Below, one piece after another: positions 28,191 through 30,273 of a DNA stretch of 35,745 nt. The DNA lies in assembly GCA_027717925.1 (NCBI GenBank), contig JALLON010000003.1, positions 1 through 35,745 of the forward strand. The letters are read 5' to 3'. Numbering within the stretch: the first letter of the stretch is position 1; every line of letters begins with the position of its first letter. Under the pieces are notes generated by a model. It saw nothing but the letters and a program-made list of their open reading frames with translations, had not been told where the DNA came from and searched no databases. This stretch comes from Acidobacteria bacterium AH-259-G07 (GTDB taxonomy: Bacteria > Acidobacteriota > UBA6911 > RPQK01 > JADFOI01). A program made the translations under genes and the position numbers.

Positions 28191-30260
28191 AGCCGGGGTG
28201 GGGTCTGACCACGGTACCGGCAAAGTCAGGATAAGCGCTGGACAATGCGAAGATTGTAAGTGCCACTGGTGGGCGGGCGGAAGGAGTTCGGATCACGAGA
28301 TGGGTCAAAAGAGGTGTTGCGGGGGTGTTGAAGGCAGAGGTCGATGTGGGCGAGAGGGAAGAGGTTTCTCTGGTTGGGCTCGGGCTAGGGTGCGGTTAAA
28401 TACGGATGAGGCCCAGAGCAAGATGGGGTCGAGCGGCGAGTTCGCGTAGCGCTGAAGCGATGTTGTGGTAATGGGCAAGCCGCAGCACACTAATGGCGAA
28501 GTTGCGTAAGCAAGCCATGGTGAGAGGACCGTTGCCGGTGCGGATTTGCGAGCGGTCTTCATCGTAGGTTACATCGCGCACCCAGTGCAGTCGGTTCTCG
28601 ATCTCCCAGTGGCCGCGGTTCAGTTCCAGCAGACTTTCCGGTCCGGCTTGGTGGGGGGTGAGGCTGGTGATGACGTAGGCGGTCTCCTGCCTGGTTTTTC
28701 CCGATTTCAGCTCCTGGCTGAACCGCTCGATGACGGCCACCTGCCCGCAATGAGGAAACTCCACGTAGTCGTTCAGTGCGGTACTGGTCCAGATTTTGCG
28801 GATTTCCAAACGACCGTGGCCTTTCTCCGTGCTTTCATGCTGAGGGGGGAAAAGCCTCGCTCAGGCCGAGGTCGGCGATGTCTTCTTTCAGCTGGGGTTG
28901 GTTGTCTTTGACCGTGAACACATAGTCGGCCTGTTTGTCTTCCACCAGGAAACGGGCCAACTCTTTTTGGGTATGCATCGCATCGGCCGTCACCACTTTG
29001 CCGGCCAGATCCAGGGGCCGCAGCAACGGTTTGGCGGCCGGAATTTCGTTGCTCTTGGTTTCCACCTGCTGCTGTGCCAGCGTGATCCCTTGCTGATGAA
29101 CAAAGGCACTGAGCAGGTGAATTTGACGGCCCTTCTCCTGCCGGGCCCCGCGCAGGGTCTTGCCGTCCAAAGCGATGGCCTGCTGCGGAGCCGACTTCAG
29201 GCTCGTTAACCATCCGAGCAGGGCGCGGTCCACCGCCTCCACGTCGACCTCCTGCAGGAAGCGGCGAATCGCCGACTCACTGGGAGGCTGGTAGCGCGCC
29301 GTGCCAGGCTTCTTGCGGCAGCGCAGACGCTTGAGCATCTTCTGCGAACAACGCCCGGCCCACTCGCCGATAGCAGGTAGGAGCGGGCTCCGCTTAAGAC
29401 CGCGCAGATCGACACCGCCAGAATGCTCAGTCTCTGGTGGCGGATGCCGCGCCGTTTGCGGGGCTCCGGTACCACCCGCAAACACGCCATCAGATCATCG
29501 CTTTGTGGGATCGAGAGTTTCATCTGAAAAATCCTCCGAGTCAGTTGTGGATCGGGACGGGGGTCGGCTAAGCGCTGGCACGCCCCCTTTTCTAAAGGGC
29601 GCACCCAAACCCGCTTCGGGGCCCCGTGTTCCACGTAATGGGCTCCCCGCTTGCCAAACCCTCTCGTCTTTCCCAGTTCCCGCCAACCCGCGGCTCGGTA
29701 GCAAGTCCCCTGAAAACGACGCGGGTCGACAAACGTTTCCGCCAGCAAAATCGGGTGACCGTAATGACGCTGCCAATCCGAGCAGAGTCGCTTCACGTTT
29801 AAGCCCAACACGCGCGAGGCTAAATTGCGCCTGGCTCCTGGCGCCAGGATTAAAAAACGGGAGTTATTGGCAATCAGGTGCAAGCGTTGCCACTGCAGCG
29901 CCCGGGGCCAGCCGATCCACTCATCCCGCACCCCGCACTTGAGCGCCGCTGACGACCAGCTCAGCAGCGCCACCCACTCCCCTCTCCAGAGCGCCACATA
30001 GCGAATCGACTCCCCCATCAAGGCATGAAAACCCAGGTAGTGATGGCGCTTCATCAGTTCTTCCCAGCGCTTCCGCTCCCTCCAATCAATCGGTCGCACC
30101 ACCACCTCGCCCAGCCCAGGCCAGACCTCCATATCCTGCGCCATACCTCCTTTTTACCAGAGCACTCTGGGAAAGTCCAGTAGTTTCTGTTAAACCTGTA
30201 CTCGTAGGAACTTACGCATTACTTTGATTTAGCCCTGGGGGTCTGACCCACAACCCGGCT
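28191..30260 (-). mobile_element. ISAs1-type insertion sequence carrying a DUF4338 (DruA-like)-transposase ORF, inactivated by frameshifts
   Basis: Imperfect terminal inverted repeat AGCCGGGGTGGGGTCTGACC (28191-28210) vs reverse complement of 30240-30260 (AGCCGGGTTGTGGGTCAGACC); transposase inside. Confidence 0.65.
28396..30144 (-). pseudogene. DUF4338/DruA-like domain fused to ISAs1 family (H-repeat-associated) transposase; two frameshifts (about 29374 and about 28844-28853)
   Basis: ORFs 29206..30144, 28835..29485 and 28396..28809 join as one protein: RHHYLGFHALMGESIRYVALW...LHLIANNSRFLIL...YGHPILLAETFVDPRRFQGTCYRAAGW then QRLSILAVSICAVLSGARSYL|AIGEWAGRC...AIALDGKTLRGA...VVTADAMHTQ...VKDNQPQL...HWEIENRLHWVRDVTYDED. 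Confidence 0.88.
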
Positions 30261-30273
30261 CCACAAAGCTCGT

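Follow-up and report, generated by a model that had tools for sequence, protein, structure and literature searches.

A DruA-like domain resembling phage Mu Mom at the N-terminus of an ISAs1-type transposase with candidate recoding sites

A contig of Acidobacteria bacterium AH-259-G07 carries a domain of the DruA family, known from the anti-phage system Druantia, next to an ISAs1-type transposase, and this raises the question of whether the two form one gene and what such a domain would do in an insertion sequence (IS). We approached it by analysing the stretch of 35,745 nucleotides that is referred to here as the window, together with related loci from the host phylum and beyond.

A fused gene in a complete insertion sequence

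The original prediction that a DruA-like (DUF4338) domain is fused to an ISAs1-type transposase was borne out, as PF14236 is followed by PF13808 within one open frame. The minus-strand ORF 30144..29206 contains PF14236 at amino acids (AA) 22-165 (E=1.9e-23) and, in the same frame, the N-terminal part of PF13808 (DDE_Tnp_1_assoc) at AA 220-256. With 83.5 bits against a cut-off of 27, a weak or absent PF14236 match is ruled out, and the family is matched by all of the relatives (38/38). The next two ORFs match the NCBIfam ISAs1 model NF033564 at positions 32-180 (E=2e-41, 142 bits) and 210-314 (E=2e-22, 80 bits), so that both transposase parts exceed its cut-off of 70 bits; the intact transposase of one relative (L042) scores 149 bits. 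Since the junction between the DruA-like and ISAs1 parts lies uninterrupted in one open frame, we can rule out that two adjacent ORFs were merged there by a frameshift, and intact fused ORFs of 600-665 AA exist. The fusion is real, but the span 28396-30144 first assigned to it is not one open frame, being broken near 29375 and at 28844-28853. The window therefore does not hold a single uninterrupted transposase gene; it has two frame changes, one of them at a conserved candidate recoding site. The features of the element are as follows.

28210..30237, minus strand: complete DruA-ISAs1 IS, 2,028 bp (ends as in multicopy relatives; exact target duplication)
28200..28209, no strand: target-site duplication copy 1, GGGGTCTGAC, identical to 30238-30247
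30238..30247, no strand: target-site duplication copy 2, GGGGTCTGAC, identical to 28200-28209
30222..30237, minus strand: left inverted repeat CAGGGCTAAATCAAAG, guided by the ends of relatives
28210..28225, plus strand: right inverted repeat CACGGTACCGGCAAAG, imperfect, 9/16 against the left; its CACGG start equals the Accumulibacter right end
29206..30144, minus strand: open frame 1, with the DruA-like (Mom-like GNAT) domain, a linker and the start of the ISAs1 transposase (ORF list, Pfam)
29650..30081, minus strand: DruA-like domain core with predicted Mom-type active-site residues H35, Y36, R96, S110, D140 and Y149 in ORF numbering (PF14236, AlphaFold2, Foldseek, residue mapping)
29377..29487, minus strand: N-terminal part of PF13808 (DDE_Tnp_1_assoc), ISAs1 transposase (Pfam)
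28835..29485, minus strand: middle of the ISAs1 transposase with the first and second Asp motifs, ALDGK and TADAMH (NF033564 32-180)
28396..28860, minus strand: C-terminal part of the transposase read in the +1 frame and containing the catalytic Glu region NRGHWEIENRLHWVRDVTYDED (NF033564 210-314; stop-to-stop frame)
29374..29377, minus strand: private lesion, a frame change (1-nt deletion relative to relatives) placed by comparison with L131, open there

The unit to consider is the complete IS (28210-30237), which contains the DruA-transposase gene alone and is flanked by a racemase-like and a Gfo/Idh/MocA-like gene, as judged from their translations. Its boundaries were located from the ends of multicopy relatives. 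Members of the ISAs1 family are expected to have inverted repeats starting with CAGGG and a target duplication of about 8-10 bp; the ends in the window begin CAGGG on the left and CACGG on the right, and the 10-bp duplication is exact. When the flanks are joined an intergenic palindrome is restored, AGCCGGGGTGGGGTCTGACCCACAACCCGGCT (-23.2 kcal/mol, z = -3.5), which argues that the 10-bp repeats are a genuine target duplication. The IS is placed in the middle of this palindrome (28192-28209 with 30238-30270), similar GGGGTTGGGGTCWGACCCCAACCCC palindromes are found at several places elsewhere in the genome, and the palindrome may be a REP-like repeat serving as target. No further copies of the IS were found in the same 66%-complete MAG, and a search of genus and family for an empty site found the flank DNA absent from the six relatives examined.

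In the closest full relative (L131), whose transposase is 68% identical, the frame is open at the position corresponding to ~29375. By this comparison the change would be a 1-nt deletion private to the window copy, or an assembly error, and on account of the deletion the window copy is probably inactive; its recoding site and Mom-type residues are intact.

The relatives of the window element are mobile, and the DruA-ISAs1 fusion is not a local accident. An Acidobacteriota MAG carries a 2,146-bp element in several copies that are 99.9-100% identical, with 10 to 11 loci of this type; its gene is one 625-codon open frame running from DruA to the end of ISAs1, its ends are CAGGGCCATCCCACGCT and CAGGACTATCCCACGCT, and of the four copies in which both ends are present, three have target duplications of 9-13 bp. 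Candidatus Accumulibacter ACC003 contains a 1,908-bp element with ends CAGGGTGGATTTGTCC and CACGGTAAATTTGTTC in ~20 copies (98.4-100% identical), with a 9-10 bp duplication in 17/18 copies. Scanning GTDB species genomes with the fused proteins returned 79 loci, nearly all of them fusions, from Desulfobacterota, Acidobacteriota, Planctomycetota, Nitrospira, Verrucomicrobiae, Alpha-, Beta- and Gammaproteobacteria, and Pelotomaculum; intact relatives are thus spread over many phyla, and intact multicopy elements exist. The annotation of a complete Thiodictyon plasmid calls the first part of such a gene only 'ISAs1 family transposase' and the last a 'hypothetical protein'. The Accumulibacter genome also has a second, separate DruA-like gene (324 AA; L178:5976-6947, also L189 and L202) near some ISAs1 copies, which groups on a long branch with the IS4-fused form.

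With the ISAs1 family (the H-repeat group, NF033564) these elements share a DDE transposase with PF13808, CAGGG ends and target duplications of 9-13 bp. The canonical members in the host phylum, in contrast, are single frames of 376-465 AA with no DruA match, whereas the elements described here have an extra N-terminal domain of ~190 AA and conserved candidate recoding sites. In the transposase tree, a well-supported branch separates DruA-ISAs1 proteins from canonical ISAs1 of the same phylum, and a degraded fragment that lacks DruA (L215) falls among the fused forms. The ISAs1-fused DruA domains could have arisen once, and a tree test rejected the IS66-linked DruA domains as a single clade. 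At the 5% level, a common origin of every DruA-transposase fusion was not rejected (p-AU 0.065), and we therefore do not claim independent fusions; this tree was built from the IS-linked domains, the genuine DruA proteins being too divergent and their rows aligned too briefly.

Conserved breaks in the transposase frame

In most fused elements the gene is divided between two overlapping frames, and the division falls at either of two positions. A mainly proteobacterial clade has its split after the first Asp motif and before the second, where the zero frame reads CAA AAA AAG, that is, the heptamer A_AAA_AAG, and the -1 frame continues with PKKVGTL; the sequence CCCAAAAAAAGT is identical in nearly all of ~20 elements despite widely differing proteins. 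In the clade of the window element, the frame breaks after the second Asp and before the Glu motif, at TTTTCCCCCC, and the downstream frame is +1. In both layouts the zero-frame product would comprise the DruA-like domain and the N-terminus of the transposase, without the full DDE triad. The two features at the window site are:

28844..28853, minus strand: slippery run TTTTCCCCCC, candidate +1 recoding site (transcriptional slippage), conserved in L131-L134 and L149
28855..28871, minus strand: hairpin CCTCG-GCCTGAG-CGAGG directly 5' of the slippery run, with similar hairpins of other sequences in 6 relatives

The run varies among relatives, being T5C5 in L135 and L136 and T3C6 in L232. A hairpin that stops 0-1 nt short of the run is present in 7/9 elements, among them that of the window, and its sequence differs from element to element; L135 and L136 have no hairpin. 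The combined shuffle p value for the hairpins is 1.6e-8, in a post hoc test with its criterion taken from the published Roseiflexus case, and once 3' sequence is added, a fold other than the slippage hairpin is favoured in the window. Around the -1 heptamer, RNAalifold found no conserved RNA structure. Single-frame DruA-ISAs1 relatives encode the gene without such runs. In four A-rich relatives (L139, L140, L143 and L137), A8-A9 runs rather than T4C6 lie at or near the frame break, which suggests that the position of the split is maintained as the slippery sequence changes. A second type of DruA-ISAs1 element in the genome of the 2,146-bp element (L120:1526-3646 and L121:1765-3882) has two frames of 706-707 AA in which the ISAs1 frame is lost around model position 200.

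A shift-prone sequence conserved at the break, together with a conserved downstream frame, is what programmed recoding calls for, and judging from the sequences these elements probably use it. PMC5009743 describes an IS630 element of Roseiflexus in which a hairpin lies 5' of a T5C5-type run and RNA polymerase drops one C. The window cassette resembles it in the hairpin directly 5' of the run, in the +1 gain (one C lost) and in its position between transposase parts, but belongs to another IS family and has a T4C6 run at which slippage is predicted from sequence. The -1 cassette, compared with dnaX/IS3-type shifting as presented in the same review, has the heptamer A_AAA_AAG in the correct frame in ~20 relatives and an upstream product without the full catalytic triad; unlike that system, it belongs to ISAs1-type elements, and the RNAalifold search returned no stimulatory structure. 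Within its accessible part, PMC5009743 lists IS1, IS3, IS5 and IS630 as families using frameshifting, does not mention ISAs1 among them, and states that no IS is known to use +1 ribosomal frameshifting. A literature search that covered few subscription journals returned nothing on point about frameshifting in IS66 or ISAs1. ISAs1-type elements, with two different candidate recoding cassettes, would be an addition to the IS families that make transposase by frame shifting.

Transposase partners and the relation to Druantia

Of 396 genomes of the host phylum that were searched for PF14236, 29 contain it, at 54 places in total, and at 45/54 of these the DruA-like domain is fused or adjacent to a DDE transposase. 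Partners were assigned by script and by eye, using local profiles built from Pfam/NCBIfam-labelled partners and, for the rest, Pfam directly. They comprise 24 IS66 elements, nine ISAs1 fusions, four Tn5-type IS4 fusions (one broken), one IS4_1 fusion, two IS1182, one IS701, three other DDE_Tnp_1 and one neighbour with DUF4277, which we take to be a transposase domain. The remaining places are five genuine Druantia systems or fragments of them and four without an assigned partner. In the IS66 elements the order is often tnpA-tnpB-druA-tnpC, with genes that overlap or nearly touch, and the IS66, IS4 and Tn5 forms have an extra N-terminal stretch of ~100 AA. At L099, L094, L114, L054 and L100, DruA-like genes adjoin transposase genes of IS701, IS1182, unclassified DDE_Tnp_1 and further IS66 type, in differing gene orders. 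One DruA-like gene on a long tree branch (L113:2963-3901) adjoins no recognisable transposase, and its neighbour (L113:3915-4970) has no Pfam match.

The PADLOC DruA models (PDLC00001 and PDLC00002) matched neither the window ORFs nor an IS66-linked protein (L053), while genuine DruA proteins of the same phylum (L091-L093 and L101), used as positive controls, scored 316-582 bits and have HerA neighbours or a DruE fragment. Among these, L101:3245-4372 belongs to a decayed Druantia on an Acidobacteriota chromosome, in which PADLOC recognises a truncated genuine DruA and, joined to it, a fragment of DruE. No druB-E neighbours are present in the window IS. The IS form and Druantia DruA belong to the same Pfam family above cut-off and have the RDxWIGW region in common, and the N-terminal half of the IS-linked domain, which contains this region, aligns to genuine DruA with a probability of 96%; the IS form differs in having no PADLOC match and no other Druantia gene. 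The idea that a defence-associated domain works with IS transposition machinery survives in its second half, which describes the usual setting of the domain in this phylum. The label 'defence-associated' finds no support in that form, as the PADLOC models do not match and profiles place the IS-linked domain beside phage Mu Mom. DruA/DUF4338 matches in the host phylum should mostly be annotated as transposon parts, not as defence genes.

A Mom-like domain and its possible function

Several comparisons strongly indicate that, in both fold and conserved active-site residues, the DruA-like domain corresponds to phage Mu Mom, a protein with the GNAT fold. Mom modifies adenine in DNA (Mu record; PMC7824862). 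An AlphaFold2 model of the window domain, computed with 37 relatives, reached a pLDDT of 88.8, and its best Foldseek match in the PDB was Mu Mom (8bv8; E=2.5e-8, probability 1.0, TM 0.60, 14% identity), with the GNAT acetyltransferases RimJ, AAC(6') and SpeG close behind; among viral models, one Mom protein was found in the first five matches. Profile-profile alignment of IS-linked DruA domains with 13 phage Mom proteins gave a probability of 95.8% (local) or 97.5% (global) and a score of 60; of 60 column shuffles none exceeded 19.8, and the reversed profile scored 18.9. The ISAs1-linked and IS66-linked sets each reach Mom alone; a single Mom sequence scores weakly against the fused-domain profile, and three genuine DruA rows aligned to Mom without significance. 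Pfam Mom (PF25680, cut-off 27.1 bits) is matched unaided by 32/38 fused domains with a best E of 1.8e-5, a count that is not tied to this cut-off, and the window copy is not among the 32. No ordinary acetyltransferase family was matched, and Mom is the only second Pfam family for most of the fused domains.

The aligned pairs (DruA/Mom) are H35/H48, Y36/Y49, R96/R101, N107/N111, S110/S114, D140/D139, G146/G146, Y149/Y149, A151/A151 and G158/G158. Across ~80 divergent IS-linked rows, H35 is kept in 79/79, Y36 in 74/79, R96 in 81/82, S110 in 81/82 and Y149 in 76/79, position 140 is D in 66 and E in 13 of 80, and N107 is the exception, often being H in IS66-linked rows. It should be noted that 8bv8 is titled 'inactive mutant S124A' and has alanine at Mu Mom S114, the equivalent of DruA S110. 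Mu Mom shares the fold and these ten residues but is a free phage protein without transposase fusion, and identity over the structural alignment is 14%. In a search with little coverage of subscription journals, we found no literature linking DUF4338/DruA to Mom or to IS fusions.

We consider it somewhat probable that the IS makes both a Mom-like DNA-modifying protein and a recoded DruA-transposase. The IS, complete but slightly damaged, belongs to the ISAs1 family, and its one gene encodes a DruA-like domain joined N-terminally to a DDE transposase. Most translation would yield the short protein, that is, the DruA-like domain with the N-terminal part of the transposase, which may bind the DNA of the element and modify bases there; the minor, recoded product would be the complete transposase that moves the element. 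The modification could serve to label or shield the element's own DNA, or to control how its ends are used. Recoding itself, the predominance of the short product, the modification of DNA and a benefit to the element are all steps that we infer, and the choice of DNA as substrate and of a base as the modified group is presumptive, GNAT-fold enzymes acting on many substrates. More tentatively, and with a chance that we put somewhat below even, there may be a whole class of IS with its own Mom-type enzyme, spanning several unrelated DDE families, in which modification serves transposition or its control and of which Druantia DruA is a diverged relative.

Other explanations have to be weighed against this. 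The domain could be a catalytically idle GNAT-fold module that binds DNA or partners and helps the transposase to find ends or target, as might be expected from the extra ~100 AA of the IS66, IS4 and Tn5 forms, the very different transposases alongside, and the placement of the domain beside the N-terminal region of the transposase; yet the equivalents of the Mom active site are almost invariant over ~80 divergent rows, a degree of sequence conservation that suggests catalysis, and we regard an idle module as unlikely. Rather less likely still is that the domain acylates protein or RNA (for instance the transposase to which it is fused, a nucleoid protein or tRNA) and thereby controls transposition: the GNAT fold, the protein and small-molecule acetyltransferases ranking just after Mom, and the naming of DUF4338 as a GNAT acetyltransferase domain (PMC10853773) speak for it, while the shared motifs are of Mom type, the second family recognised by Pfam in 32/38 is Mom, and ordinary acetyltransferase families are unmatched.

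Two further readings appear very improbable. If the DruA gene were defence cargo with a Druantia-like anti-phage function, the common Pfam family and the alignable N-terminal half would be accounted for, but not the absence of PADLOC matches where genuine DruA of the phylum scores highly, the IS without any other Druantia gene, or the transposase partners at 45/54 places. Equally hard to sustain is the view that the frame was broken by ordinary decay or by errors of sequencing, and that the element is simply a degraded fusion pseudogene. The window copy is indeed single in an incomplete MAG and carries a private deletion; however, the same break and slippery sequence recur in ~20 (-1) and nine (+1) separate elements, the break is also present in 18 near-identical Accumulibacter copies, in the isolate Nitrosomonas Nm51 and on a complete plasmid, and single-frame relatives lack such runs. 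This recurrence contradicts decay at the conserved recoding site, and decay applies to the private lesion only.

A Mom-like domain fused to the transposase, in elements with active relatives, suggests that DNA modification is a step in the movement of some transposons. If the domain does modify DNA, some of the simplest mobile elements carry an enzyme class otherwise associated mainly with phages (Mu Mom), joined to the transposase itself. This would be a direct link between base modification and transposition, and could explain why the same domain is found beside IS66, ISAs1, IS4/Tn5, IS1182 and IS701 transposases.
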